In this document: one piece after another, positions 5,748 to 36,854 of the stretch | Numbering within the stretch: position 1 is the first letter of the stretch | Layout of the letters: each line of letters opens with the position of its first letter | DNA from: Chloroflexi bacterium HGW-Chloroflexi-4 | Lineage (GTDB): Bacteria > Chloroflexota > Anaerolineae > Anaerolineales > Anaerolineaceae | DNA length: 64,000 nt | Reading direction: 5' to 3' | Assembly: GCA_002840715.1 (NCBI GenBank) | Contig: PHBW01000008.1 | Coordinates: 62,001 to 126,000 of the forward strand | The notes under the pieces: model-generated | What the model saw: the letters and a program-made list of their open reading frames with translations, nothing else | Told to the model about the DNA's origin: nothing | Database searches by the model: none | Translations under genes and position numbers: made by a program

Positions 5748-6875
5748 TTACTCACATGCTTTCGATAGATGCTCTTCAAAAGTTGATGAAAAAACATGCG
5801 AACCAGATCCATCACAATTGGCGCGGAAGTAATAATAAAAACTGCTCTCTGGTTTTGCCACTGCCAAAATGGACGGCAAATCAGGATTTGAAATCGGATG
5901 ATCAGGTAATGCTGGAATTATATAGGTGTTAAATGGGGATTGTACGGACAGGTCGCCTACCGCCAGCGGTGTCTTCCACCAACCGCCCCATGAATCATTG
6001 TACCCAAGGGCATATTGAACCGTCGGGTCCGTTTCAAGTTTCATCCCGTCTGCCAAACGGTTATAAAAGACGGAAGCCATCAAAGCACGTTCGCTGTCAT
6101 CGAATGTTTCACGTTGAATAATGGATGCCAAAACGATGGATTGACGGAAAGAAAGACCATTTTCTTGTAATTGCACTTGAATATCGGCGCTTACTGATTC
6201 TTCAAAGCGTTGAACAAAGGTCATCACCAGGTTTTGTGCACTTATCTTGCGATTGATCACATACTCACCCGGGAATAGATATCCTTCCAGAGAAAGCAAC
6301 CCATGCAGATTACCTGGCAAATCAAGATTGCCCGGATTTTTTACCAATTCCATGAACTCATCTGGGGTAACTTCAATACCTGAGGAAGGTAAAGCCGCTG
6401 CGATCTCTTCAGCTCGCCAGCCTGGATAAATATAGAACGGCACATCTGCTGAATAAGCAGATTGAATGGATTGTGAAATTTCAACAGCTGTCATGGAGGG
6501 TGAAAGCTTGAAATCACCGGCCTTGATCTGAGTATCCATCCCTTTATAGATCACGTAATAGCGAAACGCTTCCCAACTGGAGATATATCCATTTTGTTCC
6601 AAGGCCATGGCTACTGAAGTGACACTTGCTCCAGAAGGAATGGTGAAAATAGTCTGCGAAGCAACTAACGATTTTGGCATGGTCAATTTGTTTTCATTGA
6701 CCAACACCTGAAGGCTGTAGGTCCAGCGCTGCATGGGGGTCAGGTTGTGTGCAGCACTTCCAAAACTGCCTTCGGCCAGTGCAGGCACACCCACCCAAAA
6801 AATAGCGAGTCCCAATACAAGTAATAAGAAAATCAATAAAATCGGAATTAACGAACAAAAAGTTGATTTACGCAT
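5748..6875 (-). CDS. mltG: Endolytic murein transglycosylase MltG (YceG family)
   Basis: A membrane-anchored lytic transglycosylase that cuts nascent glycan strands and sets their length. From the chosen ATG at 6875 (MRKST) it has 375 residues, with one N-terminal membrane helix at about residues 5-30 and the rest outside the membrane. The YceG core shows LEGYLFPGEY, then ASIIQRETFD, DPTVQYALG and SPFNTYIIPALPDHPISNP. The catalytic Glu of the family (the one before Thr in the EKET motif) is retained, while the preceding Glu is Gln. An in-frame TTG at 6905 is also possible. The ATG is preferred because it overlaps the end of ruvX and has an AAGGACGG ribosome site at good distance. Confidence 0.92.
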   Translation of the reverse strand: MRKSTFCSLIPILLIFLLLVLGLAIFWVGVPALAEGSFGSAAHNLTPMQRWTYSLQVLVNENKLTMPKSLVASQTIFTIPSGASVTSVAMALEQNGYISSWEAFRYYVIYKGMDTQIKAGDFKLSPSMTAVEISQSIQSAYSADVPFYIYPGWRAEEIAAALPSSGIEVTPDEFMELVKNPGNLDLPGNLHGLLSLEGYLFPGEYVINRKISAQNLVMTFVQRFEESVSADIQVQLQENGLSFRQSIVLASIIQRETFDDSERALMASVFYNRLADGMKLETDPTVQYALGYNDSWGGWWKTPLAVGDLSVQSPFNTYIIPALPDHPISNPDLPSILAVAKPESSFYYYFRANCDGSGSHVFSSTFEEHLSKACE

Positions 6876-7305
6876 GGTCTTTTCCGTCCTTATGATGCTC
6901 TTCAAGCCAGGTTTGTAAAATTACGGCAGCCGCTACTTCGTCTAGGTGTCCGCCTCGTTTATCGCGTTTTGCTCCGCTTTCCAAGCGGATTTCTTTAGCC
7001 CTATTAGTGCTTCCGTTTTCATCCCACAATTCCACTGGCAGCCCTGAAACTTCAGCCAGCATTTCAGCCACTTTTTGGGCATGCCGCGTTTGAGGTCTGT
7101 CTTCGTTGTTTTCACCGATCGGACTACCAATGATAATGCGTGTTGCCTCATTCTTTTTTGCCAGCTCTGTGATTTCAATACAATCTTGCTTAAGCGACAC
7201 GTGTTTGATAACGCCTAATCCGCGGGCTAAAGTGGCGGTTTCATCGCTAATGGCCAGGCCTATACGTTTCTCACCTGGGTCAACTGCCATGATCCTGCCG
7301 GTCAT
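6868..7305 (-). CDS. ruvX: RuvX/YqgF Holliday-junction resolvase-like nuclease
   Basis: A 145-residue RNase H-fold protein. YqgF members act in pre-16S rRNA processing and have been proposed as Holliday-junction resolvases. Visible motifs are MAVDPGEKRIGLAISD with the first acidic residue (D9), IIIGSPIGENNEDRPQ in the middle, LWDENGST in place of the DERxT motif, and HLDEVAAAVILQ with the last acidic residue. The ATG at 7305 overlaps the upstream stop (ATGA), and the end overlaps the mltG start, so the three genes are translationally coupled. The longer reading frame upstream of 7305 is not conserved in type and lies in another frame of the preceding gene. Confidence 0.93.
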   Translation of the reverse strand: MTGRIMAVDPGEKRIGLAISDETATLARGLGVIKHVSLKQDCIEITELAKKNEATRIIIGSPIGENNEDRPQTRHAQKVAEMLAEVSGLPVELWDENGSTNRAKEIRLESGAKRDKRGGHLDEVAAAVILQTWLEEHHKDGKDHA

Positions 7306-8807
7306 TGAACATCTCCAGAAGCGAACGAAATGTTGGTCGAAAGAAACGGCATCCAGGGCCATTTTGAGAACCAACTCTCTATCACCGCCGGGGAACGTTG
7401 TGCAAAGATATTTGAAAAAAGTGACTGAGCCTGGTTGACCTTCATACCCGCCAAATTGGCTGAGGCTTGTTCCATATTCCACTCTGGCACAAGCAGGCGC
7501 GAAGCTTTCATCGTCCAAGCAGCCTGACCAAAATCATCCACTCGAAAATCACCTACTCGATTCAAAGTGATACTGTCTTTAACCGGCACAAATCCTTGCG
7601 GTTGGTTTGAGGTTAATACTAAATCTGCAATGGCGTTAAGATCGCTTTGCTGATAGCCAAATATTTTTAACCTGACATTCAAACGCAAGATCGCTTCGTC
7701 AGCCGGTTCGTCAATCTTGTTAACCTGTTCACTCAGTAAAATTTTTTCAAGAGTGAGACTTGGCTCAATATACACCAACCCTTCAACTTTTTCAGCTTGC
7801 AAACTTGCCAACCCCTGAATCATCAGGTCTTCTAACAATTGTCTTTCAAGCAGTGCGTAATCTTCGGCGCTGGGAGACGGCGTTTCCACGCCTCCACCAC
7901 CGCTAAATTTTTCAGGATTGCTGACACTCACCAGTGCATACATGCCGCCGGGCAAGGTCCAGACCGAATTGGCTGCCAGGTTGCCTTCTGTGCCGGTAAT
8001 TAAGGCTTCCACTTTGCCAGCAGCAGAATCAATCACACCTGCCGGAACCACAACGGCTTCTGTCAAACTAAAACTTGTCAGGGTTTGATCACCTGCCAGT
8101 AAAAGAGTGCCGGTTGGCAAGGTGACATCTGAAAAAGTCAGGTTTGTGAAAATCACTTCCCCCACTGCTTTGGTGGTTGGAATGGAAACCTTGCCAGTAC
8201 TTGGCATGGCTTTCTCTCCGTTCACATCAATAAACACGGCTTTTGCGGGGATACCGCCCGAAGGATTAATGCCGGAAAAAACCTCTGATGCTTTGATCCG
8301 TATTTCAACTTCTTGTAATGAGGTTACTGGAAAATATGTAATTTCAGCATGCGGGAGGAGCACCACCAAAAGTGCAATCAAGGCTCCCAGACTAATTACA
8401 AGAGCCAACCCCTTAGTCAAAGGGGTTTCCGGTTTGGATGATGCCTGGCGAGGCAGTTGCGCTCTGATTGCTTTGTTGGCATCCACCCCTTTAGGCACCT
8501 TATTGGCAATGCTGCCCTTGGTATCAGCTTTCCAGGCACTTCTTTCAGCTGCAGATATAGAAGCAAATAATGGCACATTAGAATCCAACGCCCATTCACT
8601 TATCACAGGATGATGCGTAACCAAAGCTAGCTCAGACCCAAGTGAATTGGCTTCACGATTGAGCAGCACTAATTCCAATTCATTGTGTAGAATTCTGCCC
8701 TTTTTTGGCCAAACCAAAATCATGCGCTGGCAAGATTGCCAGGCCATCTTGTCTTTAATTGAGATGACATCATCATGCGCTTCAAGTTGAATCACATTGG
8801 TTTTCAT
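7302..8807 (-). CDS. Baseplate-J-like envelope protein with N-terminal cytosolic domain
   Basis: A 501-residue protein of the type often named baseplate J/gp47 family in Chloroflexota. Residues 1-95 form a soluble alpha/beta domain (ILVWPKKGRIL, LELVLLNREA, ALVTHHPVIS). A basic, proline-rich linker is followed by one membrane helix at about 132-152. The rest (155-501) is a beta-rich exported region with GEVIFTNLTF, LPTGTLLLAG and VEALITGTEGNLAANS segments. It probably sits in the membrane with most of its mass outside; its job is not known. The ATG at 8807 is preferred over the GTG at 8852. It heads an operon with ruvX and mltG, which suggests a link to cell-wall growth rather than to phage. 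Confidence 0.7.
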   Translation of the reverse strand: MKTNVIQLEAHDDVISIKDKMAWQSCQRMILVWPKKGRILHNELELVLLNREANSLGSELALVTHHPVISEWALDSNVPLFASISAAERSAWKADTKGSIANKVPKGVDANKAIRAQLPRQASSKPETPLTKGLALVISLGALIALLVVLLPHAEITYFPVTSLQEVEIRIKASEVFSGINPSGGIPAKAVFIDVNGEKAMPSTGKVSIPTTKAVGEVIFTNLTFSDVTLPTGTLLLAGDQTLTSFSLTEAVVVPAGVIDSAAGKVEALITGTEGNLAANSVWTLPGGMYALVSVSNPEKFSGGGGVETPSPSAEDYALLERQLLEDLMIQGLASLQAEKVEGLVYIEPSLTLEKILLSEQVNKIDEPADEAILRLNVRLKIFGYQQSDLNAIADLVLTSNQPQGFVPVKDSITLNRVGDFRVDDFGQAAWTMKASRLLVPEWNMEQASANLAGMKVNQAQSLFSNIFAQRSPAVIESWFSKWPWMPFLSTNISFASGDVQ

Positions 8808-8876
8808 AGCACTCAAATTATTATACCTGAAGCATTTTTCCGTGAAAAACACCCTTGTTTAAACTTACAGAATTAT

Positions 8877-8905
8877 TTGTGAAGAATCTTGTGAAAAGCT
8901 ATAAT
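8877..8905 (+). promoter_or_regulatory. Sigma-70-type promoter for the lipoprotein gene
   Basis: TTGTGA at 8877-8882, 17 bp, perfect TATAAT at 8900-8905. The predicted start near 8912 leaves a short leader with a GAGAGGAAA ribosome site before the ATG at 8928. It may also serve the DNA-processing genes downstream, since no other promoter is obvious before them. Confidence 0.72.
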
Positions 8906-8927
8906 AAAAATATAACTGAGAGGAAAT

Positions 8928-9770
8928 ATGAAAAAAATACTATTTATTACACTTATCATGGTCATGATTTTGACCGCTTGCAATTTGCCCAAAGCGAATG
9001 GCACCCCCGCAGTGGATGTTATCTCCACGCGCGTGGCCGGTACACTGGCCGCTTCAGAAACCTCCGCAGCCATGATTCAACCCACAGAAGCCCTTCCGAC
9101 ATTGGCACTCGACACCGCCACACCCGAACCTACCCCCACGGCCACAGTAACCCCAACTGCGACCGTGAACCCCAGCGACCCCAAACTCACACTTGGCGCG
9201 CCGGACTTCACCTTCAATTCTGCCACCAGCGGCAATCCCTTTGGTCTTGCAGGAAATCCTTATGAAGATAATTCAATTATCATTTCTCACCAGGTAGGCG
9301 GACTAAATTTCACCAGTAAAACTATCAACGGGGGAAAACGCTGGCGCCTTTCTGCACCAACCCCAACCAATTTCTACCTTGAAGGCACCTTCAAAGTTAT
9401 TACCTGCTCAGATCGCGACAATTATGGCCTGGCAATGCGGGTTCCAACCTATGCAAGCACACTTGGCTATTTCATTGGTCTTTCTTGCGATGGCAGCTAT
9501 ATCATTGACCGTATTGACGCTGAAGGCAATGGTTACAACCTCAAAACATGGACTGCGGATGCCAACATCAAAACTGGCAGCGGACAAGTTAACCGATTGG
9601 GTGTTATGCTGATCAATGATTCCTTCAAAATATACATCAATGGTGTAAAAGTGACTGAATTTATTGATGGCACAATACCAACCGCGGGTCACGGCGGCGC
9701 ATACATCTCTGCTCGCGGCAATCCTAATTTCACGGTCGAATTGCAGGAACTCTTGGAATGGGATCAATAG
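8928..9770 (+). CDS. Exported lipoprotein with Thr/Pro linker and LamG/DUF1080-like domain
   Basis: A 280-residue lipoprotein. The N-terminus is a type II signal peptide with lipobox LTAC (lipidated C18). A low-complexity Thr/Pro-rich linker (about 60-85) is followed by a beta-rich domain (about 90-280). Its features (TNFYLEGTFKV, NYGLAMRV, YFIGLSCDGSY, INDSFKIYINGVKV) resemble concanavalin-like LamG or DUF1080 sugar-binding sandwiches. It would sit on the outer face of the membrane. No catalytic residues can be named, so binding rather than hydrolysis is the cautious reading. It lies 10 bp upstream of the exonuclease gene and may share its transcript, although a functional link is not apparent. 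Confidence 0.75.
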   Translation: MKKILFITLIMVMILTACNLPKANGTPAVDVISTRVAGTLAASETSAAMIQPTEALPTLALDTATPEPTPTATVTPTATVNPSDPKLTLGAPDFTFNSATSGNPFGLAGNPYEDNSIIISHQVGGLNFTSKTINGGKRWRLSAPTPTNFYLEGTFKVITCSDRDNYGLAMRVPTYASTLGYFIGLSCDGSYIIDRIDAEGNGYNLKTWTADANIKTGSGQVNRLGVMLINDSFKIYINGVKVTEFIDGTIPTAGHGGAYISARGNPNFTVELQELLEWDQ

Positions 9771-9780
9771 GCAAAGATTC

Positions 9781-10362
9781 ATGACAAATCCCGCACCCGA
9801 ACCATTAAAGCAAAATGCCATCCAAACCGCAGCCCGTTGGGTCGCTGAAAAACCGGTCTACATTGACACTGAAACAACCGGACTTGATAAAACAGATGAA
9901 ATTGTCGAAATTTCGATCGTGGATTTTAACGGCAGCGTTTTATATTCATCTTTGGTGAAACCTTCCAAATCCATTCCGGCCGAAGCTTCACGTATCCACG
10001 GCATCACAAACGAAATGGTAGCTTCATCCCAAAACTGGCTGGTTCAATGGCCTACCATCCGCAACATATTGTATGGACGCACCATTGCAGCCTATAACGC
10101 GCCTTTTGATCTACGTATGATGCAGCAATCGCACGCCGCTTATAAATTTCCATGGCGAGAAAATTTCAAAGTGGTGGATGTGCTGGCATTGTATTCTGAT
10201 TACCGCGGTGTGTGGAACCCGGTCAGGGGATCAATGAAGTATTTCAAACTTGAAGAAGCCGGTGCATCTTTTCAGATCGCACTGCCGAATGCACACCGCT
10301 CCACCGCAGATTCGATTTTGACACGCGCTGTGCTGCACAGCATGGCGGGGCAGCCTTTTTAG
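9781..10362 (+). CDS. DnaQ-like 3'-5' exonuclease (DEDD superfamily)
   Basis: A 193-residue exonuclease-domain protein. ExoI has D29 and E31 in VYIDTETTGLD, ExoII is AAYNAPFDLRMM, and the last motif is NAHRSTADS with the H and D of the DEDDh type. Family members remove nucleotides from DNA or RNA 3' ends with two metal ions. The ATG at 9781 is chosen because conservation begins there; the frame also runs upstream inside the lipoprotein gene. It is the first of five genes tightly packed in the same direction that all act on DNA, so a repair or recombination role is more likely than proofreading. No polymerase gene is near. Confidence 0.88.
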   Translation: MTNPAPEPLKQNAIQTAARWVAEKPVYIDTETTGLDKTDEIVEISIVDFNGSVLYSSLVKPSKSIPAEASRIHGITNEMVASSQNWLVQWPTIRNILYGRTIAAYNAPFDLRMMQQSHAAYKFPWRENFKVVDVLALYSDYRGVWNPVRGSMKYFKLEEAGASFQIALPNAHRSTADSILTRAVLHSMAGQPF

Positions 10363-10380
10363 AACCTGAAGGACATTTTT

Positions 10381-12504
10381 TTGACAGAATCAAAGCTTAC
10401 TTCAATACAGCAGCAGATCGCAGATTTACCCGTTCAATCACGGGTATTTTTGCACGGACCGGCAGGCTGCGGCAAAACCTTCGCAGCAGTCCACCACATG
10501 CAAGCGTTGATTAAAGCCGGTGTACCCTCAGATTCCATCTTGATCCTCGTGCCTCAGCGCACGCTGGCCGAACCGTTTAAAAAAATCATAAGAACACCAA
10601 ATTTTACATCAGGGGGCGAACCAGCCATCCTTACCATTGGTGGTTTGGCGCAGCGCATGTTGACCCTTTTTTGGCCCCTGGTTGCCAAAGAAAAAGGTTT
10701 TGGTGCGCCTGATAAACCTCCCCGTTTTCTGACACTTGAAACAGCCCAATATTACCTTTCAAACCTTGTGGAACCACTGTTACAAATTGGATACTTTGAA
10801 AGTGTGACCGTCGATCCCAACCGCCTTTACAGCCAGATACTCGACAACCTCAACAAATCTGCAGTGGTGGGTTTCTCGCCAGAAGAAATATCAACACGGC
10901 TCATCCAAGCCTGGGCGGGCAAACCCTCGCAAGCCATCATTTATGATCAAGCTCAAGAATGCGCGCTGCGATTCAGGCAGTTGTGTCTGCAGCAAAATCT
11001 GCTGGATTTTTCTTTGCAGTTATCCGTTTTTGCCAATCATTTATGGCCTTCGCTTTTATGCAGGCAATACCTGACTTCCACGTACAGACACTTGATCTAC
11101 GATAATACTGAAGAGGATTACCCGGTGGCGCACGACTTGATAGAATCCTGGATGCCTGATTTTGAGTCAGCTTTGATCATAAAAGACGAACAAGGCGGAT
11201 TTCGCTCCTTTATGGGCGCGGATCCTATTTCAGCCAGCCGATTCAGCAAGGCTTGTGAGAAGACAATCAAGTTCACCGAATCCATGATTAAAACACCAGA
11301 GCTGGAACATCTGGAAACTGCACTGACCACCAGCCTGACTTACCACAAAATCGAATCTGAAATCCCAATAGAAATCCAAAACGCTTTTTCAATCCACACC
11401 TTCCGTTTCTATCCCCAGGGCCTGGATTGGATCACAGACCAGGTGAAGGATTTGGTTGATAACCAGGGTGTAAGGCCAGAAGAAATTGTGGTTCTGACGC
11501 CCTTTTTAAGCGATTCGCTACGCCACTCGATTAATGCACGTTTCACCAATGCAGGACTCAGTTTGAGCACCTTTCGCCCATCCAGAGGACTGCGCGACGA
11601 ACCAGCCATCAATGCAGTGCTCACACTGGTAAAACTGGCTTTTCCGACCTGGAATTTGAAACCCGTTAAGGACGAAATACGAATCGCCATGTTGTTGTTG
11701 ATTGAAGACTGTGATTACATCCGTGCAGATTTGATCACCCAGGTGCTTTTTGGCCAAGCTAATGGAATTCTGCGCTCATTTGATTCCGTGAAGAACAAAG
11801 AAATGCAGCAGCGCATCAGCTTTCTGGTTGGCGAACGCTTTGAAAGACTGCGGCTGTGGCTCGAAGAGAACGCCATAGATGATTCTCTAGAACTGGATAT
11901 ATTCATCAGCCGATTATTCGGTGAACTCCTTTCTCAGCCAGGTTATAAATTCCATCAAAATTTCGATTCTGCCGCTGCTGTCAACCGGCTGGTGGAATCC
12001 GCCCGCAAGTTCAGACAGGTGATGAACATTGAAACCTCTCCAAAAACACCTGATTTGAATAAAGAGTACATCCGTCTTGTCGAAACAGGCATACTCTCTG
12101 CCCAATATATGAGTGATTGGGAATCCAAAACCAGATCCGGTTCTGTTCTGGTTTCTCCGGCTTTTTCTTACTTGATGAACAACCGCCCTGTGCGATTTCA
12201 ATTCTGGCTGGATATCGGTTCACAAGGCTGGTGGACGCGTCTGGATCAACCCCTAACCCATCCTTACGTGCTCAACCGCAACTGGCAGAACGGAAAATTG
12301 TGGTCAGACATGCACGAAAACGCAGCCAACCAGCAATCCCTCATCCGCATCATGGATGGCCTCATTCGCCGCTGCAGTGAGCACATTTTCATGTGTACAC
12401 TGGGGGTCAACGAACAAGGTAATGAAGAGCGCGGCGCATTGATCATGGCTGTGCAAACCATCCTGCGAAAACTTCAAAACAAGCCGGGGGTGAAGCATGT
12501 TTAA
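10381..12504 (+). CDS. AddB-like superfamily 1 helicase/ATPase without nuclease domain
   Basis: A 707-residue protein starting at TTG 10381. A Walker A motif is clear (GPAGCGKT, residues 26-33). A Walker-B-like acidic stretch (HLIYDNTEEDYP) sits near residue 240, where UvrD proteins have DEAQD. Motif V/VI-type signatures are weak. This is the pattern of AddB/RecC-like subunits, whose helicase folds have drifted. Unlike AddB it has no C-terminal nuclease; that domain is on a separate gene two places downstream. It overlaps the following helicase gene by 8 bp, implying coupled translation and probably a complex. The AddB-like reading is inference from fold signatures and gene order. Confidence 0.7.
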   Translation: MTESKLTSIQQQIADLPVQSRVFLHGPAGCGKTFAAVHHMQALIKAGVPSDSILILVPQRTLAEPFKKIIRTPNFTSGGEPAILTIGGLAQRMLTLFWPLVAKEKGFGAPDKPPRFLTLETAQYYLSNLVEPLLQIGYFESVTVDPNRLYSQILDNLNKSAVVGFSPEEISTRLIQAWAGKPSQAIIYDQAQECALRFRQLCLQQNLLDFSLQLSVFANHLWPSLLCRQYLTSTYRHLIYDNTEEDYPVAHDLIESWMPDFESALIIKDEQGGFRSFMGADPISASRFSKACEKTIKFTESMIKTPELEHLETALTTSLTYHKIESEIPIEIQNAFSIHTFRFYPQGLDWITDQVKDLVDNQGVRPEEIVVLTPFLSDSLRHSINARFTNAGLSLSTFRPSRGLRDEPAINAVLTLVKLAFPTWNLKPVKDEIRIAMLLLIEDCDYIRADLITQVLFGQANGILRSFDSVKNKEMQQRISFLVGERFERLRLWLEENAIDDSLELDIFISRLFGELLSQPGYKFHQNFDSAAAVNRLVESARKFRQVMNIETSPKTPDLNKEYIRLVETGILSAQYMSDWESKTRSGSVLVSPAFSYLMNNRPVRFQFWLDIGSQGWWTRLDQPLTHPYVLNRNWQNGKLWSDMHENAANQQSLIRIMDGLIRRCSEHIFMCTLGVNEQGNEERGALIMAVQTILRKLQNKPGVKHV

Positions 12505-14734
12505 GCCCCGTCCAATGCAGGCAGAAATTCTCAAATATCAAAACGGCAAAATGGGCGTGGCTGCCGTGCCTGGCAGCGGAAAAACTGCCACACTTTCTGC
12601 ACTGGCTGCCCAATTGATCACACAAGGCACCATCTACGACGACCAGGAAATTTTGATCGTCACTCTTGTCAATTCTGCCGTGGATAACTTTTCGACTCGC
12701 ATCGCATCATTTGTACGCGAAGCTGGACTTCTCGAAAACATGGGCTACCGTGTTCGCACCCTGCACGGTTTGGCGCATGACATCGTGCGAGAAAGACCTG
12801 ATTTGGCTGGTCTTTCAGAACAATTTTCCATTCTTGACGAAAATGAATCTTCGCGCATGATTGAAGCAGCCGCGGCTGCTTATCTTAGGGAGCATCCTGA
12901 ACTGGCCGAACAATATATAGACCCAAGTATTGACTTGCATAATGAACCAAAAACGCATAAAAATTGGAATGAAAGCATAACCAGCATTTGCGCCAATTTC
13001 ATCAGCCAGGCAAAAGATCTGCAAATTGAGCCTGCCGAATTGCGTGAGAAAATCGAAAAACATCATCTTTCCGATCCACTGCTTGAGATGGCCGTTCAGG
13101 TCTATTTTGAATATCAAAGGGGACTGCGTTATCGGGGTTCTGTGGATTTCTCAGACCTGGTCCGACTGGCTCATCGCGTGCTCTCATCAGACCGTGAATT
13201 TCTTGAACGGCTGCGCTACCGCTGGCCATATATCCTTGAGGATGAAGCCCAGGATTCTTCGTTGGTGCAGGAGCGCATCCTCAGGCTGCTGGTGGGACCG
13301 GACGGCAATTGGGTGCGGGTGGGTGACACCAATCAGGCTATCTATGAGACTTTTACCACCGCCAGCCCTACTTTTCTACGCGACTTTTTACGTGAACCCG
13401 GTGTGGTTGCAAAAGACCTTGCCAATTCCGGACGTTCCAATAAAAGCATCATCCGTCTCGCCAACGATCTAAACAAGTGGACACGAGACGCTCACCCGGT
13501 GGAAGACCTTCGCAGTTCGCTTTCACTTCCTTACATCATCCCCGCCCCGCCTGGCGATCCGCAGCCCAACCCGCCTGATCACCCGCAATCCGTTTACATC
13601 ATGAAGAACGCGGTGAATTCTGAAGAAGAGATCAAAAAAGTAGTCGAATCGATTAGAAATTGGCTACCTGCTCATCAAGATAAAACAGTCGCTGTTCTCT
13701 GCCCGATCGGTTTTCACGCTGAAAAAGTGGTTGAAGCGCTGGAATTTGCCGGCATCGAAATCGTTGAAATGCTAAAAAGCACCCAATCCACTCGCCGTGT
13801 AACGCGCATCCTCGAAAAAGTGCTCGTCTGTCTGTCTGACCCCTCCGCCGTTAATAAGTTGGCTGCAGTGTTTCAATTGTTAACTCATGATAACCCTGAC
13901 CTTGAGACCTGCAAATCTGATGTTTCGAACCTGTTCAACCAATTGAAAAAGGTGCGTGAATTGGAAGTTTTGCTATACGCAGACACCCCAAATGGTTGGC
14001 GCAAAACACTTCAACTTGAAGCATTGCCGCCAGTCCTGGATCGAAAATTCAGCAAGTTCCTGGTAGATATGGTCCGCTGGCAAAATGCAGCACCCCTGCC
14101 AATAGATCAACTGCTGCTAACCGTCGGACGAGACCTCTTCACTTCACCACAGGATTTAGCATTAACACATAAACTGGCGTTACTGCTTGAATTCAGCGCA
14201 CGCAACCACCCTGAATATCAATTGCCGCAGTTTGCGATCGACCTGGCTGAAATTGCCTCCAATGAGCGCAAATTCGCTGGTTTCAGTGAGGATGATACCG
14301 GATTCAACCCGGAAGCCCACAAAGGTAAAGTGCTGGTCAGCACCTTCCATAAAGCCAAAGGGCTTGAGTGGGACAGGGTTTATCTGCTATCCGTCAATAA
14401 TTATGATTTCCCTTCCGCGCAGGAGTTTGACAATTACAAGGGTGAAAAATGGTTCATTGCCAACCATCTCAATCTTGAAGCGGAACTGCTCTCCAAGTTG
14501 AAAGCCATCGTGAATGACGACATCCCTGGCATGTTCATGGAACCCGGATATGCCACACGCGAGGCAAGGATCGAATATTCTTCAGAACGACTGCGCTTGT
14601 TGTATGTTGGCATTACCCGTGCCCGCGAATCACTGATCATCACCTGGAACACCGGAAGGCGCAAAGAAGCCCGCATGGCGCTTCCGCTTGAGGCTTTGCA
14701 CGCCATTTTGGAGGAAAAGAATGCTGCTGCCTGA
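12497..14734 (+). CDS. UvrD/PcrA-like superfamily 1 DNA helicase
   Basis: A 745-residue 3'-5' helicase-type protein with a full motif set: Walker A AVPGSGKTA (K29), Walker B YILEDEAQDSS, motif III VGDTNQAIYETF, motif V LVSTFHKAKGLEWDRVYL, and motif VI RLLYVGITRARESL. It has no nuclease domain at its C-terminus, so it is not a complete AddA. The overlap of 8 bp with the AddB-like gene and 14 bp with the nuclease gene, both with coupled starts, points to a stoichiometric three-protein machine. It is expected to unwind duplex DNA in the cytosol while the separate nuclease degrades or processes it. Confidence 0.9.
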   Translation: MFKPRPMQAEILKYQNGKMGVAAVPGSGKTATLSALAAQLITQGTIYDDQEILIVTLVNSAVDNFSTRIASFVREAGLLENMGYRVRTLHGLAHDIVRERPDLAGLSEQFSILDENESSRMIEAAAAAYLREHPELAEQYIDPSIDLHNEPKTHKNWNESITSICANFISQAKDLQIEPAELREKIEKHHLSDPLLEMAVQVYFEYQRGLRYRGSVDFSDLVRLAHRVLSSDREFLERLRYRWPYILEDEAQDSSLVQERILRLLVGPDGNWVRVGDTNQAIYETFTTASPTFLRDFLREPGVVAKDLANSGRSNKSIIRLANDLNKWTRDAHPVEDLRSSLSLPYIIPAPPGDPQPNPPDHPQSVYIMKNAVNSEEEIKKVVESIRNWLPAHQDKTVAVLCPIGFHAEKVVEALEFAGIEIVEMLKSTQSTRRVTRILEKVLVCLSDPSAVNKLAAVFQLLTHDNPDLETCKSDVSNLFNQLKKVRELEVLLYADTPNGWRKTLQLEALPPVLDRKFSKFLVDMVRWQNAAPLPIDQLLLTVGRDLFTSPQDLALTHKLALLLEFSARNHPEYQLPQFAIDLAEIASNERKFAGFSEDDTGFNPEAHKGKVLVSTFHKAKGLEWDRVYLLSVNNYDFPSAQEFDNYKGEKWFIANHLNLEAELLSKLKAIVNDDIPGMFMEPGYATREARIEYSSERLRLLYVGITRARESLIITWNTGRRKEARMALPLEALHAILEEKNAAA

Positions 14735-15515
14735 TTCCTTCGTTTTTACCCAACAAAACCTGCAAGATTATAAAGACTGCGCTTACCGTTTCTACCTCAA
14801 AGAAATTTTGAGACTCGATTGGCCTGCGGTTGAAAGCGAACCCATTAGAGAACAGGAAGCCCTGATGCTGATGGGCACCCGTTTTCACCTGCTCTGTCAA
14901 CAATATTTTTCGGGCATCCCGGCGGATGTGCTTTCGGGGCAAATTACACATCCGGAGCTAACAGATTGGTGGCAAAATTTCTTAAACCTCAATCTTCACC
15001 CAACACCCGGCAGTTTTTCAGTTGAGAAACTTAACACCATTCCGTTTGGCGGCTTCCGTCTGGCAGCCAAAATCGACCTGATGCTCAAGACAGACGGAAA
15101 AATAATTATCTATGATTGGAAAACTTCACAGCACCAACCCAAACGCCAGACCTTGTTGGCGCGTATGCAGAGCAAAGTCTATCCTTTTGTGATCTCTAAC
15201 CTTCCAGCAAGTCAGACTGTTCAGCCTGAATCCATTGAAATGGTTTACTGGTATCCAGCCTTCCCTCAATCGCCCGTCATATTCGCCTATTCAAGCGCGC
15301 AAAATGACGCGGATCAAACCGAGCTTGAACTTTTAGCCGCCGAAATCACTTCAAAAGACAAAGAAGCTTTCAATAAAACCGACAACACGAAAGTTTGTAA
15401 ATTCTGCCGCTACCGTTCACTTTGCGACCGGGGAAAAGAAGCTGGCACAAGTGAATTGGATGAAGAACCGGCCGATTCAGACGCTGCCTTTATTTTTGAT
15501 TTTGATTCGATTTAG
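14721..15515 (+). CDS. Free-standing PD-(D/E)XK nuclease with AddB/Cas4-type iron-sulfur cysteines
   Basis: A 264-residue RecB-family nuclease. The catalytic set can be read as H56 in MGTRFH, D119 in AKIDLML and D132-x-K134 in IYDWKTS. Four cysteines, C20 in YKDCAYRF and C226, C229, C235 in CKFCRYRSLC, have the one-plus-three layout that holds a 4Fe-4S cluster in AddB, AdnB and Cas4. The ATG at 14721 has a GGAGGAAAAG ribosome site and lies inside the end of the helicase gene; a TTG at 14688 is less likely. Cas4 is an alternative family name, but there is no CRISPR locus here and the two helicases beside it favour an AddAB-like end-processing role. Confidence 0.88.
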   Translation: MLLPDSFVFTQQNLQDYKDCAYRFYLKEILRLDWPAVESEPIREQEALMLMGTRFHLLCQQYFSGIPADVLSGQITHPELTDWWQNFLNLNLHPTPGSFSVEKLNTIPFGGFRLAAKIDLMLKTDGKIIIYDWKTSQHQPKRQTLLARMQSKVYPFVISNLPASQTVQPESIEMVYWYPAFPQSPVIFAYSSAQNDADQTELELLAAEITSKDKEAFNKTDNTKVCKFCRYRSLCDRGKEAGTSELDEEPADSDAAFIFDFDSI

Positions 15516-15518
15516 AGC

Positions 15519-17855
15519 ATGAAACCCTTACTACCTGCTTCTGCAACCCGCTGGATCAATCCACCGGAAAATCCCCTGCCATCCGATTTGACTACCATGT
15601 TGAATTTGCCTGAATTGGTGCTGCGTATTCTGCACCGCCAGGGGGTGCATTCCTCCGCTGAAGCCCGCGCCTTTATGGATTTTCAAACCTATACCCCCGC
15701 CTCACCTTACGAACTGCAGGACATGGAAAAAGGAATCGAACGCACACTGCATGCCAAAAAATCCGGCGAGTTGATCGGTGTGTGGGGTGATTTCGATGTG
15801 GACGGCCAAACTGCGACTGCCACTTTGGTTTCAGCTTTGAGACAGGTTGGCGCGAAAGTGGTCTATCATGTGCCCGTGCGCGGACCAGAAAGTCATGGCA
15901 TAAAACTGGAAGTCTTGCAGACATTTGTGCAGCAAGGCGTCACATTGTTGATCACCTGCGATACTGGCATTTCTGAGGTTGATCAGATTGCCTGGGCACA
16001 ATCGCACAATATAGATGTGATCATTACAGACCATCACACCCTGCCCGAAGTACTTCCTCAAGCTTATGCGATCATCAATCCACAGCGGCTTGCATTTGAC
16101 CATCCGCTGCGTCCACTGCCGGGGGTCGGGGTGGCCTGCAAGTTCGCTGAAGCATTATTTGAACGCAGCCACAAGGAAGATGGAGCGCGTTCACTTCACG
16201 ACCTTGCCGCTTTGGGCATCGTTGCTGATATTGCAGAATTACACGCAGATTCACGCTATTTGGCACAATCAGGCATTGACTTGATCCGTCAATCTCCCCG
16301 GGCTGCTCTGCGTGCCATGTTGCAAGCTGCGGAGATTGAGGCAGCGCAATTCTCCGAGGAATCCATCTCATTTGCACTTGCACCACGCATGAACGCTGTT
16401 GGAAGACTCTCAGACGCCAACCCAATGGTTGAATTTTTACTCTCTGATGACCCGGCAGTCATATCGGTTACCATCAATCGTTTGGAAGGTCTAAACGCGC
16501 AGCGTAAACTATTATGCGACCATGTCTTTCAAGGCGCACTCGCTCAAATTGAACGCAATCCAGGTTTGCTTGACCATCCTGTCTTGATCCTCTCTCACCC
16601 TGAGTGGCCGGCAGGTGTGGTGGGTATTGTAGCCAGCCGTTTGATCTCACTTTATCATCGTCCGGTGATTCTGATGGTGGCTCCTCCTGGCGGTTTAATG
16701 CGTGGATCAGCACGATCCATTGAAGGAATTGACATCACCGCTTCCATCAGACAAAACGCGGTTTTCTTGACTTCTTTTGGCGGGCATCCCATGGCTGCCG
16801 GCCTCGCCCTGGATCCTAAGAATTTCAAAGCTTTTCAGCGTGAACTGGATAAAGCCGTGGAGGCACAGTGCGAACTCCATCCAGTGGTGAACGAACTTCA
16901 GATCGACGTCTGGCAGCAGCCATCACAAATTGATCTCGCACTGCTGCAATCCATTGATCAACTGGCACCATTTGGAGCAGGAAACCCACCCATTGTGATG
17001 GCCGCCAAAAATATGAGGCTGGTCAGCGCCACCCCAATAGGTAAAACCAAAGAGCACATGCAGCTTTTGGTTGAAGACGCAAAAGAGCAAGCATCAAAAT
17101 TTTTGTGGTGGCAATCCGCCGGACTGCCCCAGCCCGAAGGGTTGTTTGATCTGGCTTATACAGCCCGAGCATCAACTTATAAAGGTCAAGCTCAATTTCA
17201 ACTCGAATGGCTGGATTTCCGTCCAGTCGAAAATGAAACCCTGGTGCTCATTTCTAAAAAAAGAAAAACCATCGAGCATCATGATTACCGTAAAAGTTCA
17301 GTCTCATCGTTGTTTACAAAGAACCTGGTCGATAAATATCAGCCAGAAGTGTATTACGAAGGGTTGAATCAATATCCCTTTGCAACAAAAAACCGACTCG
17401 AATTAACGACGAATGAGACTTTATTAATCCTTTCCATGCCGCCTTCGCAAGCCATTCTGGATCAGATCATTACAAAAGTTCAACCGGTACGCGTGTTTTG
17501 GTTTACGAGCGAACCAGTTGAAAACGAAACTGAAATTGTAATTAAAAACACGGCCCAAAAAATTAAACAAAGTTTCATACAAAACCAGCCTATGATCAAC
17601 GTTGGAGAACTTGCTATTGAATTGGCTACCACTGAAGAGATCATTCGTTTAACCGTCCAGTGGATGACCGCACGAGGCGATATCACCATCCAAACCGAGG
17701 GCGATAAAACCATCCTGCTTACGCCAGGCGGCTTTGCAGACCTCACTAAACAAGAAGAGTTTAAAAAGAAAATTCAAAAAAGCATGGCTGAAACCCAGGC
17801 CTTTCGCCGATATGCTCTTCGCTGTGATCTCTCTGATTTGATTGAAAATGCTTGA
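15519..17855 (+). CDS. recJ: Single-stranded-DNA exonuclease RecJ, long form
   Basis: A 5'-3' single-strand exonuclease of recombination and repair. The DHH domain has GDFDVDGQTA (D91, D93, D95), D148 in ITCDTGIS and the TDHH motif at 170-173. The DHHA1 part has GRLSDANP and SFGGHPMAAGLAL, and an OB-fold region follows around 450-550. At 778 residues it is about 200 longer than the E. coli enzyme. The tail from roughly 570 includes a segment that looks like a winged helix (VGELAIELATTEEIIRLTVQ) but has no certain assignment. It starts 3 bp after the nuclease stop, so it belongs to the same operon and supplies the opposite exonuclease polarity. Confidence 0.93.
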   Translation: MKPLLPASATRWINPPENPLPSDLTTMLNLPELVLRILHRQGVHSSAEARAFMDFQTYTPASPYELQDMEKGIERTLHAKKSGELIGVWGDFDVDGQTATATLVSALRQVGAKVVYHVPVRGPESHGIKLEVLQTFVQQGVTLLITCDTGISEVDQIAWAQSHNIDVIITDHHTLPEVLPQAYAIINPQRLAFDHPLRPLPGVGVACKFAEALFERSHKEDGARSLHDLAALGIVADIAELHADSRYLAQSGIDLIRQSPRAALRAMLQAAEIEAAQFSEESISFALAPRMNAVGRLSDANPMVEFLLSDDPAVISVTINRLEGLNAQRKLLCDHVFQGALAQIERNPGLLDHPVLILSHPEWPAGVVGIVASRLISLYHRPVILMVAPPGGLMRGSARSIEGIDITASIRQNAVFLTSFGGHPMAAGLALDPKNFKAFQRELDKAVEAQCELHPVVNELQIDVWQQPSQIDLALLQSIDQLAPFGAGNPPIVMAAKNMRLVSATPIGKTKEHMQLLVEDAKEQASKFLWWQSAGLPQPEGLFDLAYTARASTYKGQAQFQLEWLDFRPVENETLVLISKKRKTIEHHDYRKSSVSSLFTKNLVDKYQPEVYYEGLNQYPFATKNRLELTTNETLLILSMPPSQAILDQIITKVQPVRVFWFTSEPVENETEIVIKNTAQKIKQSFIQNQPMINVGELAIELATTEEIIRLTVQWMTARGDITIQTEGDKTILLTPGGFADLTKQEEFKKKIQKSMAETQAFRRYALRCDLSDLIENA

Positions 17856-28495: not shown

Positions 28496-31400
28496 ATGCG
28501 ATTTCCTATCACCAAACGGGCGCGGATTAGATACCGGTTTGAATCTTCTCTTTTTACTTCCACTGGCAAAGTAAACCTCCCGGATACCAGAACACTCCAT
28601 TCCTTTGTCTATCAAATTTACCAGACCAACATTAAACAAGGAATCTCAAATAAAAGCCTGAAAGCCAGTCAAATTCACGGTATCGGCTTGTTGGATGAGA
28701 TTTTTCACCATGTTTTCAAGCTCTATAAACAGAATAACCCCAACATGATTAACGAATTATTTTCATCATTGCAACTTACCTTTTCGCCCATTAATCTGGA
28801 TATGCTGCTCAACTTATTCGTCAAGCATTATTCACCACAAGCTGTTTATGACGAACTCATTTCAACTCAGGAATTTTTGCAGGAAAAAGGACCTGCGGGA
28901 CCAAATCAAGAATCTGTTCTTGTTGATCTCATTCTGCTATGGGTTTCCACTCAAAACCAGGCATTGATACCGTTTGCCAGCTTGCTTTGGGAACCGGATG
29001 TATTAATACATCCATTGTTCAATCCAATTCTTAACTACATCGAACGTTTATTTTCAGAATTGCCAGGTTTTGGCCCTGAAAAACAATCACTGGTAGAGAT
29101 GTTAAAATCGCCTGCCGAAAAAGTTCCCGATTCCATATCCGGTCAGTTGGAATTCATCAGAATCCATTGGGGATACTTATTGGGAGACTTGATCAATTTT
29201 CAACTTTTGAATAATTTCGATCTACTAAAAGAGGAAGAAAAATCCGGGTTTACCGGTCCAGCACTGGCTGAAGTGCTGGTATATGATTCAAAAACAATGT
29301 CCTCCACATTTTCGTCTTCAGGTTTTAATCGTGAGATTAAAGCTTTCAGTATTGACCGTGAATGGATGCCCGGTCTTGTATTGATCGCCAAGAATATTTT
29401 TGTCTGGATGGACCAACTTTCTAAAAAATATAATCAATCAATCAAAACGCTTGATCAAATACCAGATTCAGAATTGATGGCTTTGCAATCTCATGGCATA
29501 AATGGGCTATGGTTAATCGGTTTATGGCAGCGCAGCCCAGCTTCAGCACGCATAAAACAGCTTACCGGCAACCCTGAAGCAGTATCTTCGGCGTATTCAC
29601 TCTATTCTTATAGAATTGCTGATGAACTTGGCGGCGATAGCGCCTATGAGGTGCTTAAACATAAGGCAGAAAGATTTGGCATCCGCCTCGCATCAGATAT
29701 GGTTCCCAATCACATGGGCATTGATTCTGAATGGGTCATTCATCACCCTGAATGGTTTCTATCAGTAAGTGAGAGTCCATTTCCTGCATATAGCTTTACT
29801 GGACCTGATCTCTCTTCAGACGATAATATCACCATCCAAATTGAGGATCATTATTATGATCGCACAGATGCTGCCGTTGCCTTTCGGCGAATCGACAAAC
29901 GAAATGGTGAGACGAGGTTTATCTATCACGGCAATGACGGCACCGCCATGCCTTGGAACGATACCGCCCAATTGAATTACCTTGATGCTGCAGTTCGTGA
30001 AGCGGTCATTCAAACCATCATTGAGATTGCACGAAAATTCCCGATCATCCGTTTTGACGCGGCCATGACGTTGGCAAAGAAACATATTCAACGATTGTGG
30101 TATCCAGAACCGGGTTCCGGCGGAGCGATCCCTTCAAGGGCAAATCACTCGATCTCTCAACATGATTTTAACCAGGCTGTGCCCAAGGAATTCTGGCGTG
30201 AAGTGGTTGAGCGGGTCGAAAAAGAAGTACCCGGCACGCTGCTGCTCGCTGAAGCTTTTTGGCTGATGGAAGGCTACTTCGTCCGCACCTTGGGGATGCA
30301 CCGCGTTTATAACAGCGCGTTCATGCACATGCTGCGCGATGAAGATAATGCCGGATATCGAAAGCTGATTAAAAATACACTTGAGTTCGACCCTGAAATT
30401 TTAAAACGCTTTGTCAATTTTATGAACAACCCTGATGAACGTACAGCCATTGATCAATTTGGCAGCGGAGACAAGTATTTCGGCGTTTGCACACTAATGG
30501 TCACCCTGCCCGGCCTCCCCATGTTTGGACATGGCCAAATTGAAGGGTTGACTGAAAAATACGGCATGGAATACCGCAAACCCATGTTGGATGAAACCGG
30601 CATATATGAATTTGATAAACAACATTTCGAAAAGATCAGTCCGCTGCTGCGAAACCGGGAGTTGTTTGCCAATGCAGACCATTTCAGATTGTTTGATTTT
30701 CAACAGTCTGATGGAAACATCAACGAAAATGTATATGCTTTTACCAATCAACATGGAAAGAATCGTGTGTTGGTTTTGTTTAATAATGCTTATCAAGAAG
30801 CCGATGGCAAAGTGGTTAATTCCTTCGCCCATGCTGACTCGGCAGACCACCATACAGGTAAATATTCGTTAAATATCGCCGCTGCATTTGGCCTCTTTGC
30901 AGAAAACCACCGCTTTGTGTGTTTGCATGACCTTTCGACCGACAGCTACCATATTCGCCTTTCAAACCAAATCGTCGAACATGGTTTTAAGATTCATTTG
31001 AATGGTTATGAATATCATGTTTTCAGTAAAGTACAACCAAATGAAATACTAAATGATGAGACCTTTAAGCGCCTTTACGAGCTTTACGGCCAAAATTCTA
31101 TTCCAAATTTACAAAAGGCACTCGCTCAAATTGTTGGTCAACAAAAAGATCCAATTCAAACGAATGCCGATCTCTTGACTGCCGTATTGGATAGCGTGCG
31201 TCAAGATCAACACAATCAAAAGTTAGACAACACCCAGCGTCTTAATCAGGCAGTGAATGCGTATTTGAATAATGTTAAAGAAATTTCAAATTATCAGGGC
31301 GATTTATCTCAACTTCAATTAGAGATTATGCAGATGTTTACAACCTTTTTTCAGTTGCCACAACTTATTAAATCGCTTGAGGTGCCAGGAACCAAAAAAG

Positions 31401-31966
31401 CTGCACAGCACCTATCAAATATGGCCGCTGATATTGCATCAAATTTTCCGCGCTCAATATCACTTTGTGTTTGGATTCTCGCAAGTCAATTTCACCATCA
31501 CATTAATTCGTTGAATTCCCCGGCTGATGGAATTGATTGGATTAATAAATGGAATTTGGATCAATCGATAAAATATGCCTTGCTCAAATCAGGATTTTCA
31601 GAGGATGATGCAATTCACAAAACCACTTTCATAAAGTTGGCAGTCAAGCAGCAAGACTGGTTCACTCAAGAAAACGCTAAAGATTACTCAAAAATCCTTC
31701 AGACTTGGTTGACCACACCCGATATCAGAGATGTACTTAAAGTAAATTTTTATGAAGACATACTTTGGTATCACCAGGAGTCCTTCTTGGAATTGATGTG
31801 GTGGATGGAATTTGTACCAATTCTTAAAGCTTTTTCAACAAAAGAATCAAACAGAGTCACTGGTACAGAGACAGTGCTTGCGTTACAAGATATATTCAAA
31901 AAGATACAAACCCGCCACAAAAAGTCTTATTGCAAGGTTGATTTGTTATTGGGCAATAAAGGTTAA
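28496..31966 (+). CDS. Very large GH13 (alpha-amylase family) protein
   Basis: A 1156-residue alpha-amylase-fold protein with no signal peptide, so cytosolic. The catalytic barrel occupies roughly residues 290-760. The triad is placed by motifs: nucleophile D521 in IRFDAAMTLAK, acid/base E586 in LLAEAFWLM, and D647 in MNNPDERTA. MVPNHMGIDSEWV is the first conserved GH13 region. Residues 1-280 and 850-1156 are mostly helical and not recognised. The family acts on alpha-glucans (hydrolase or transferase). In this window malQ and a GH57-type pseudogene share that theme. The ATG has a CGGGAGAA ribosome site and a TATAAT lies at 28452-28457. It ends 4 bp into the convergent pseudogene. Confidence 0.85.
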   Translation: MRFPITKRARIRYRFESSLFTSTGKVNLPDTRTLHSFVYQIYQTNIKQGISNKSLKASQIHGIGLLDEIFHHVFKLYKQNNPNMINELFSSLQLTFSPINLDMLLNLFVKHYSPQAVYDELISTQEFLQEKGPAGPNQESVLVDLILLWVSTQNQALIPFASLLWEPDVLIHPLFNPILNYIERLFSELPGFGPEKQSLVEMLKSPAEKVPDSISGQLEFIRIHWGYLLGDLINFQLLNNFDLLKEEEKSGFTGPALAEVLVYDSKTMSSTFSSSGFNREIKAFSIDREWMPGLVLIAKNIFVWMDQLSKKYNQSIKTLDQIPDSELMALQSHGINGLWLIGLWQRSPASARIKQLTGNPEAVSSAYSLYSYRIADELGGDSAYEVLKHKAERFGIRLASDMVPNHMGIDSEWVIHHPEWFLSVSESPFPAYSFTGPDLSSDDNITIQIEDHYYDRTDAAVAFRRIDKRNGETRFIYHGNDGTAMPWNDTAQLNYLDAAVREAVIQTIIEIARKFPIIRFDAAMTLAKKHIQRLWYPEPGSGGAIPSRANHSISQHDFNQAVPKEFWREVVERVEKEVPGTLLLAEAFWLMEGYFVRTLGMHRVYNSAFMHMLRDEDNAGYRKLIKNTLEFDPEILKRFVNFMNNPDERTAIDQFGSGDKYFGVCTLMVTLPGLPMFGHGQIEGLTEKYGMEYRKPMLDETGIYEFDKQHFEKISPLLRNRELFANADHFRLFDFQQSDGNINENVYAFTNQHGKNRVLVLFNNAYQEADGKVVNSFAHADSADHHTGKYSLNIAAAFGLFAENHRFVCLHDLSTDSYHIRLSNQIVEHGFKIHLNGYEYHVFSKVQPNEILNDETFKRLYELYGQNSIPNLQKALAQIVGQQKDPIQTNADLLTAVLDSVRQDQHNQKLDNTQRLNQAVNAYLNNVKEISNYQGDLSQLQLEIMQMFTTFFQLPQLIKSLEVPGTKKAAQHLSNMAADIASNFPRSISLCVWILASQFHHHINSLNSPADGIDWINKWNLDQSIKYALLKSGFSEDDAIHKTTFIKLAVKQQDWFTQENAKDYSKILQTWLTTPDIRDVLKVNFYEDILWYHQESFLELMWWMEFVPILKAFSTKESNRVTGTETVLALQDIFKKIQTRHKKSYCKVDLLLGNKG

Positions 31967-35661: not shown

Positions 35662-35666
35662 AAACC

Positions 35667-36854
35667 ATGATAATCACTGAGTCAGCAACCCCCTTTGAAT
35701 ATACTCCCATCGAAGCCAGAAACCCGGTTTTAAAAGTGGTTGGTCTGGGCGGTGGTGGACAAAACGCAGTGGATCGCATGATTGAACTCGGCCTTTCCGG
35801 GATTGAGTTTATTGCAGCCAATACAGACGCCCAGGTGTTGAAATCCAGCCAGGCATCGATCAAGGTTCAACTTGGCCCAAAACTCACGCGCGGACTTGGC
35901 GCCGGAGGAAACCCCGAAGTGGGTGAAGCGGCATCTGAAGAAAGTGTCGCAGAATTAAGTGAAGTATTGGCCGGTGCGGATATGGTCTTCTTGACAGCAG
36001 GTATGGGAGGCGGCACCGGAACTGGCGCAATCAGTGTGGCAGCCCGGGTTGCTAAAAGTCTTGGCGCAGTGGTTGTGGCCGTAGTAAGCCTGCCTTTTTC
36101 ATTTGAAATGGGTAGACGTCAAAAGAATGCCCGCGAAGGGCTTGCAAAATTACAACCATTCACTGACACCTTGATAACGGTCCCGAACGACCGCTTGTTA
36201 TCGGCGGCTCCGCGCGATCTTCCATTAGAAATGGCATTTCGCATGGCAGATGATATATTACGCCAGGGTATTCAAGGCATCTCAGAGTTAATCACCCAAC
36301 CGGGATTAATTAATGTCGATTTCGCACACATCCGCAATTTAATGAAAAACGGCGGCGGTTCTTTGCTGGCCATTGGCACAGGTGAAGGTGATAACAAAGC
36401 CATCGATGCATTGGAACACGCGCTTCACCACCCGATGATCGAAACTATAGACCTGTCAGATGCCGGCGGCATTATTGCAAACTTTACCGGTGGAACAAAC
36501 CTTACTTTCTCGGAAGTAACCGATGCGCTAAGTTATTTGCAAGCCAGAACCGGCACCGGTGTTGAGATCATACCTGGTGTTATTTGCGATGAACTTATGG
36601 AAGACCGAGTGCAGGTCATTCTGGTTTTGACAGGCATTGGAGCAACATCAATTGATACTCAAAAAGTTCAAAACGAACAGCCGAAAATCCAAACCGAACA
36701 ATCAAAAATTCAACCCATTCCAATGGACCTAAATATTGGAAATGAACCGATCCAGGTAAATGCTTTTGCTCCCACCCCCGTCCCACAGGTGGATATGGTT
36801 ATCAATCAGCCGAACCTGGATGTTCCGGCCTTTCTAAGACGTCGGATAAATTAG
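35667..36854 (+). CDS. ftsZ: Cell-division GTPase FtsZ
   Basis: The tubulin-like GTPase that forms the division ring. The 395-residue protein has VVGLGGGGQNAVDRM for nucleotide binding, the tubulin signature GGGTGTG at 114-120 (AGMGGGTGTGA), and a T7-loop segment PGLINVDFAHIRNLMKNGG. A linker rich in Gln and Pro is followed by the conserved tail DVPAFLRRRIN, which in other bacteria binds FtsA and similar anchors. That tail argues for a true division FtsZ rather than a CetZ paralogue. The ATG at 35667 is chosen over the GTG at 35658 because GGAGAGG is then at proper spacing. It is not in a standard dcw cluster here; its neighbours are a TIM-barrel-like gene and two small genes. Confidence 0.95.
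   Translation: MIITESATPFEYTPIEARNPVLKVVGLGGGGQNAVDRMIELGLSGIEFIAANTDAQVLKSSQASIKVQLGPKLTRGLGAGGNPEVGEAASEESVAELSEVLAGADMVFLTAGMGGGTGTGAISVAARVAKSLGAVVVAVVSLPFSFEMGRRQKNAREGLAKLQPFTDTLITVPNDRLLSAAPRDLPLEMAFRMADDILRQGIQGISELITQPGLINVDFAHIRNLMKNGGGSLLAIGTGEGDNKAIDALEHALHHPMIETIDLSDAGGIIANFTGGTNLTFSEVTDALSYLQARTGTGVEIIPGVICDELMEDRVQVILVLTGIGATSIDTQKVQNEQPKIQTEQSKIQPIPMDLNIGNEPIQVNAFAPTPVPQVDMVINQPNLDVPAFLRRRIN

Follow-up and report, generated by a model that had tools for sequence, protein, structure and literature searches.

Whether five adjoining genes can encode, on separate polypeptides, the parts of a single machine for processing DNA double-strand breaks is the question raised by the locus described here, at positions 9781-17855 of the window. 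The window is the whole 64,000-nucleotide stretch that was analysed (G000:C21:62001-126000) and comes from a 3.86 Mb genome, 85.6% complete, which we place in the class Anaerolineae from its named relatives. The preliminary description of this DNA reported five abutting or overlapping genes, and all five open reading frames (ORFs) were found over that span on the forward strand, namely a gene for a DEDDh 3'-5' exonuclease followed by four genes that we call AddBl, HelA, Nuc and RecJ2. It also proposed that parts like those of AddAB and AdnAB, which PMC6452273 lists with RecBCD as the complexes that process DNA breaks in most bacteria, are carried here by separate polypeptides, and this holds, AddBl, HelA and Nuc being separate genes and AddBl plus Nuc aligning with AddB. 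We consider it likely that the operon encodes one modular double-strand-break end-resection machine assembled from separate polypeptides, equipped with an AddB/AdnA-type nuclease and RecJ and with no AddA-type nuclease.

AddBl (10381-12504, 707 aa, TTG start) was described as an AddB-like ATPase, and its AlphaFold2 model (mean predicted local distance difference test score, pLDDT, 90.6) does show the fold of UvrD, AddB and AdnB. By VIA-align, used for all structural alignments reported here, the model matched UvrD (4c30_I) with Z 29.9 and a root-mean-square deviation (rmsd) of 3.3 over 482 aligned residues, the AdnB motor (9np6_B) with Z 25.3 and rmsd 5.2 over 615, and, through its residues 20-699, residues 2-696 of AddB (4cei_B) with Z 22.2 and rmsd 6.8 over 606. 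The family scan placed UvrD_N alone above its cut-off (35.7 bits), ADDB_N staying below at 12.6 bits, and hhalign comparisons of the AddBl profile gave 594 aligned columns with local AddB (E 6e-11), 382 with HelA (E 3.5e-8) and 222 with AddA (E 2.5e-7). The motifs of AddBl, HelA and Nuc were assigned at positions that we take to be those of superfamily 1A (SF1A) helicases and RecB-family nucleases. The Walker A motif of AddBl is kept, with K32 in 135 of 141 aligned sequences (four gaps, two Thr), and its motif II is a conserved D-N-x-E-E (D241 in 134, E244 and E245 in all 141) in which an asparagine, N242, replaces the catalytic glutamate in 140/141. Because Asn sits at the position of the catalytic Glu, AddBl is probably a scaffold and not a second motor; it probably binds ATP. 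The earlier statement that one nuclease serves two helicases has to be revised accordingly, since only one of the two helicases looks active. The long AddBl frames of two other loci (L039, L057) have N-terminal extensions in which no Pfam domain was found.

HelA (12497-14734, 745 aa; UvrD_N 162 bits, UvrD_C 77 bits) has the features of an SF1A 3'-5' helicase, with 16 of the 17 motor motif positions checked being invariant in 93/93 aligned sequences and A251 kept in 91/93. It scores 135 bits with the Rep model, 134 with PcrA and 87 with addA. The addA cut-off of 708 bits, like the absence of an NCBIfam addB match for AddBl, has little weight here, since local AddAB pairs, whose best models are addB_Gpos and addA_Gpos, fall below the curated cut-offs too. 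In the helicase tree, the 18 HelA rows form a clade of their own (support 100/100) with a branch length of 2.16 changes per site; a single clade of HelA and AddA is not rejected (p-AU 0.084). Because HelA forms its own clade, fission of AddAB is not established, nor is a descent of HelA from AddAB. As had been reported for both the AddB-like ATPase and the UvrD-like helicase, family scans found no nuclease family on AddBl or HelA.

The nuclease is supplied instead by Nuc (14721-15515, 264 aa), a free-standing RecB-family PD-(D/E)XK protein. Its preferred start is the ATG at 14721, with GGAGGA just 5' of it; the mechanical ORF list opens at the TTG at 14688, and the PDDEXK_1 score of 94 bits is from that longer ORF. 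The four cysteines noted in the preliminary description are indeed present on a separate protein and nearly invariant (C20, C226 and C229 in 70 of 70 aligned sequences, C235 in 69), and Nuc may be loaded with an iron-sulphur cluster. Among the catalytic residues, H56, E102, D119, K134, Q150 and Y154 are found in 70/70 and D132 in 68/70. The AlphaFold2 model (mean pLDDT 85.7) gave its highest Z among the structures compared with AdnA (9np6_A; Z 18.9, rmsd 3.0, 219 aligned), followed by the Cas4-family ACE1 (9iac_B; Z 15.6, rmsd 3.5, 219 aligned), residues 782-1135 of AddB matched by Nuc 1-240 (4cej_B; Z 15.2, rmsd 3.8, 227 aligned), Cas4 (7mi4_A; Z 12.9, rmsd 3.4, 190 aligned) and RecB (8b1t_B; Z 10.9, rmsd 3.9, 174 aligned). 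The Nuc profile aligned to the nuclease of local AddB over 239 columns (E 1.2e-13) and to that of AddA over 60 (E 4.9e-5). The cas4 family scored 15.6 bits against a cut-off of 65, and family scans identified no cas gene among the operon proteins. According to the models, AddBl and Nuc together would span AddB minus a linker of ~85 residues, the AddBl part of this fit being loose.

RecJ2 (15519-17855, 778 aa) scores 449 bits with TIGR00644 (cut-off 397) and has three Pfam domains, DHH, DHHA1 and OB, followed by a C-terminal domain of ~200 aa. This tail gives weak matches to PF10141 (in 3/30 members) and to winged-helix families. The place given to RecJ in the operon stands, with the qualification that the operon copy is the second of two paralogs, as a short RecJ, presumably the housekeeping enzyme, is encoded elsewhere in the genome (G000:C18). 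Ten genomes or records were searched for RecJ and seven of them have two such proteins, the short ones in frames of 576-633 aa and the long ones of 764-845 aa, while two genomes (G064 and G317) have the short RecJ only and a Salinibacter plasmid record, described below, has the long one only.

We searched the same 150 Anaerolineae genomes with AddBl, HelA, Nuc and the RecJ2 tail. After removal of six weak AddBl matches (E 1e-4 to 1e-3), which reduced the AddBl genomes from 89 to 83, the genome counts for HelA, Nuc and the RecJ2 tail were 81, 72 and 61, respectively, and every one of these genomes (81/81, 72/72 and 61/61) also has AddBl. AddBl, HelA and Nuc occur together in 70/150 genomes and none of the three in 67/150. 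Fisher p-values of the co-occurrence are inflated by shared ancestry, and it is the zero counts and the unlinked cases that carry weight: AddBl, HelA and Nuc are all present and far apart in G107 and G064, and in G026 HelA lies ~9 kb and Nuc ~128 kb from AddBl. For gene order we used loci from 60 of the 83 AddBl genomes (61 with the window) and 80 named loci, the best 80 of 516 confirmed relatives; many loci stop at contig edges, and more than 2.6 kb 3' of AddBl is available in only 52 (genome) and 58 (named). The four core genes are contiguous in 17/61 genome loci, the window included, and in 25/80 named loci, and AddBl and HelA adjoin in 41/61 and 45/80, respectively. Co-inheritance is near-obligate and the order is conserved, bearing out the linkage across Anaerolineae on which the preliminary description depended. 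The overlaps it gave, from which it suggested equal synthesis, are 8 nt between AddBl and HelA (12497-12504) and 14 nt between HelA and Nuc (14721-14734); both are read directly from the sequence, and they point to no more than possible translational coupling. A highly divergent AddBl-HelA-Nuc operon was observed at 6777-12417 of locus L250, with AddBl 30% identical to that of the window; the genome, from the family of the window, has a short RecJ only.

The DEDDh gene (9781-10362, 193 aa; RNase_T 1.7e-15, DEDDh residues judged by eye) behaves differently from the core. It adjoins the operon on the same strand here, as reported, and is found upstream on the same strand in 22/80 named loci, those of Longilinea arvoryzae and Ornatilinea apprima among them, but in 0 of the 60 other genome loci; three loci of the window's family (L250, L251 and L252) have no obvious DEDDh upstream, although no search with the DEDDh protein was made. 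The gene is thus a lineage-restricted add-on and not core. The 14 most recurrent neighbour clusters, assessed by eye, contain DEDDh and housekeeping or variable genes, and no defence family is among them.

Beyond the class, the set was found by tblastn on plasmid pSR56 of Salinibacter ruber M8 (Rhodothermota). AddBl and HelA are each 40% and Nuc 37% identical to those of the window, RecJ aligns over residues 12-770 of 778 with 37% identity, and the core genes overall range from 37 to 42%. The order is that of the window (AddBl, HelA, Nuc, RecJ), and the annotations read hypothetical protein, ATP-dependent helicase, PD-(D/E)XK nuclease and recJ; the gene upstream of the set has no match to DEDDh. 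Salinibacter HelA is nested inside the sampled Anaerolineae HelA, in a 10-row group with support 99/100, a placement that would be expected for transfer. Other genes of the plasmid are dinB, those of a type I restriction system and toxin-antitoxin genes. Just upstream of the operon (NC_014028.1, 8059-9928 of locus L253) we observed an HTH-M78 peptidase gene and a 202-aa protein without a Pfam match, possibly a toxin-antitoxin pair or a regulator.

AddBl matched three plasmid records in all, the third being from Nonomuraea with E 3e-4. Another is the Ilyobacter polytropus (Fusobacteriota) megaplasmid pILYOP01 (NC_014633.1), in which 7995-9968 of locus L254 encodes a 657-aa AddBl-like protein, 18% identical, with a DNxEN motif. 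No HelA, Nuc or RecJ is annotated beside this gene, the plasmid not having been searched with HelA nor the chromosome at all, and the megaplasmid has two PDDEXK_1 matches, in frames of 891 and 1044 aa. Of 301 Chloroflexota genomes, 37 gave an AddBl match. The 32 strong matches are all inside Anaerolineae; the remaining five, weak and outside the class (E 1e-11 to 1e-18), include four for which HelA is the better-scoring model and one that scores about equally with both, and one of the five (locus L245) matches Nuc as well. No AddBl or Nuc match was found in 50,697 phage records, and a search of viral contigs with the AddBl alignment gave none.

How the split system relates to known machines depends on which part is compared. 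Like AddAB, it combines a single SF1A motor with an inactive partner of helicase fold and a RecB-family nuclease of the iron-sulphur type with its Cys quartet, but the nuclease is a separate protein, the motor HelA has no nuclease, motif II of AddBl reads DNxEE where the local AddB consensus reads DGFD, and a long RecJ is present in 61/83 genomes. The resemblance to AdnAB lies in Nuc, whose closest fold match is the AdnA nuclease, and in the 615 residues over which AddBl aligns with the AdnB motor; AdnA and AdnB are both motor-nuclease fusions, whereas the split system has three separate proteins, one nuclease and no such fusion. With RecBCD it shares a single RecB-family nuclease for the whole machine and a scaffold with a dead helicase fold, in a RecC-like role, and it differs in that the motor has no fused nuclease and in the Z of only 10.9 between Nuc and RecB. 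The family scan of the operon identified no RecD-type helicase there, the genome not having been searched for RecD. From the sequences, AddBl and Nuc appear AddB-like, and for HelA the tree is compatible with more than one origin.

The nearest description in the open-access papers searched, which yielded none of this gene set, is an unfused pair of UvrD and Cas4-like genes in one predicted operon, mostly in Clostridiales, whose context suggests repair (PMC5704561). Compared by description only, that pair comprises two genes, and section 8 of the source names no AddB-like or RecJ partner. Fused UvrD-Cas4 proteins are described in the same source and would carry the same two catalytic domains on one polypeptide. 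A candidate fusion was seen in an outside-class Chloroflexota genome (G186; 6789-9563 of locus L245), a 925-aa protein matching both the HelA and the Nuc models and encoded directly after dnaA/dnaN/recF-like genes, these neighbours being named by eye; the locus has no separate AddBl or long RecJ match. RecJ2 resembles the RecJ of D. radiodurans in having an added tail, which in the latter binds the HerA ATPase (PMC4663267); by analogy, the tail of RecJ2 might dock onto AddBl or HelA.

The preliminary description expected no addAB or recBCD elsewhere, and this is correct in part. Besides Nuc, no PDDEXK_1 frame of AddAB or RecB size was found in the window genome at its 85.6% completeness, and no AddAB-sized frame in those of Longilinea arvoryzae, Anaerolinea thermolimosa and Ornatilinea apprima, whose PDDEXK_1 frames are those of Nuc, at 204-222 aa, plus another of 279 aa in Ornatilinea. 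However, three AddAB pairs of the usual type were checked by family models, and two of them (G026, G096) reside with the split system and one (G023) in a genome without it; other candidate pairs were seen only as neighbouring long ORFs. PDDEXK_1 frames of 900 aa or more, not all of them proven AddAB, occur in at least 39/150 genomes, at least 27/83 with AddBl and at least 12/67 without (Fisher p 0.06). A simple replacement of AddAB by the split system was considered and rejected, as the two co-reside in some relatives. The combination of an AddAB elsewhere with absent linkage was not found as a whole, because the linkage is conserved; its AddAB half is seen in relatives.

The proposed mechanism starts from B. 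subtilis AddAB, in which one motor serves two nucleases, AddA cutting the 3' strand and being kept off it after Chi and AddB cutting the 5' strand (PMC4824097), and from RecJ being a 5'-3' exonuclease (PMC4663267). In the machine that we favour, HelA would be the sole 3'-5' motor and AddBl the AddB/AdnA-like scaffold, probably binding ATP and lacking the catalytic Glu, while Nuc would act as an AddB/AdnA-type iron-sulphur nuclease on its own protein and RecJ2 as a dedicated second 5'-strand exonuclease with its extra C-terminal domain. The assignment of Nuc to the 5' strand follows from its fold, its cysteines and its profile match to AddB, with the reservation that sequence search favours AdnB. 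With a motor devoid of nuclease, a retained nuclease of the AddB/AdnA type and, in most of these genomes, a second RecJ, trimming would most simply be confined to the 5' strand, which would be removed so that a RecA-ready 3' tail is left by design. Since the AddA-type, 3'-strand nuclease appears to be absent, Chi control would be less needed or unneeded. Complex formation, strand polarity, regulation and Chi independence are thus predictions of the gene content. Going further, it is possible, though we hold it only tentatively, that these genes represent a separate class of recombinational end-resection machine. It would have arisen without descent from AddAB or AdnAB, by bringing together a UvrD-type motor, a dead helicase scaffold, a free iron-sulphur nuclease and a dedicated RecJ, and it would cut only the 5' strand, yield 3' tails without Chi and be portable enough to function on a plasmid of another phylum.

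Several observations weigh against one machine built on an AddB-like core. By Z, AddBl is closest to plain UvrD, PcrA and Rep, its alignment to AddB is loose (rmsd 6.8), and its top Foldseek match is UvrD. For Nuc, Foldseek alone puts the Cas4-family ACE1 first, and a PDB sequence-profile search favours AdnB (1e-8) over AdnA (0.002). Among the 83 AddBl genomes, 2 have no HelA match, 11 no Nuc and 22 no RecJ2 tail, the tail being missing from all six f34 genomes sampled; some of these genomes are broken assemblies, and some of the absences may be true losses. Homology between the tails of RecJ2 and D. radiodurans RecJ was not established.

One rival reading is that the genes encode repair enzymes of one pathway, co-inherited and often co-transcribed, that form no single complex, with AddBl acting separately, perhaps as a regulator with a UvrD fold. 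The nearness of AddBl to UvrD-type proteins, the position of HelA as an SF1A clade of its own not grouped with AddA and the unlinked genes of several genomes would all be consistent with this. We regard it as unlikely nonetheless, as HelA and Nuc accompany AddBl in 81/83 and 72/83 genomes and never occur without it, the genes overlap, and AddBl and Nuc together account for nearly the whole length of AddB. Less probable still is a fission of AddAB in which the AddB nuclease split off, AddA lost its nuclease and the function was unchanged. Here the 594-column match of AddBl to local AddB, better than to HelA or AddA, the match of Nuc to the AddB nuclease including the cysteines, and the unrejected clade of HelA and AddA are set against the separate HelA clade with its long branch, its higher scores with Rep and PcrA than with addA, and the intact AddAB beside the split system in some genomes.

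The preliminary description had left the choice between a distinct recombination and a defence machine, and of these we favour recombination. A machine degrading invading linear DNA would suit the plasmid copy, which lies near an HTH-M78 peptidase gene and shares pSR56 with restriction and toxin-antitoxin genes, and HelA matches GajB models (PADLOC). Yet no GajA, the partner expected for Gabija, is among the PADLOC families listed for the five proteins (for HelA, 25 of 54 families), the recurrent Anaerolineae neighbours include no defence family, phage records and viral contigs gave no match, and AddBl is carried by 83/150 sampled genomes. The plasmid copy still allows a defence role, which we consider very improbable.

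If the end-resection machine proposed here is real, it adds another layout of break-processing machine, with AddBl, HelA and Nuc in 70 of the 150 sampled Anaerolineae genomes and the system also in the three named-strain genomes in which no AddAB-sized nuclease frame was found. With the scaffold, the motor and the nuclease encoded separately, any one of them could be removed or swapped alone, and the role of a dead helicase subunit becomes directly testable, as does the question of whether the attack of the AddA nuclease on the 3' strand is the sole reason for Chi control.

Two other genes of the window were noted. Positions 35658-36854 encode an FtsZ/tubulin-like protein of 398 aa with a GGGTGTG motif recognised by eye, overlapping a 441-aa gene by 4 nt, and positions 28496-31966 encode a 1156-aa protein that appears by eye to belong to the alpha-amylase family and to be extended at length at both termini.

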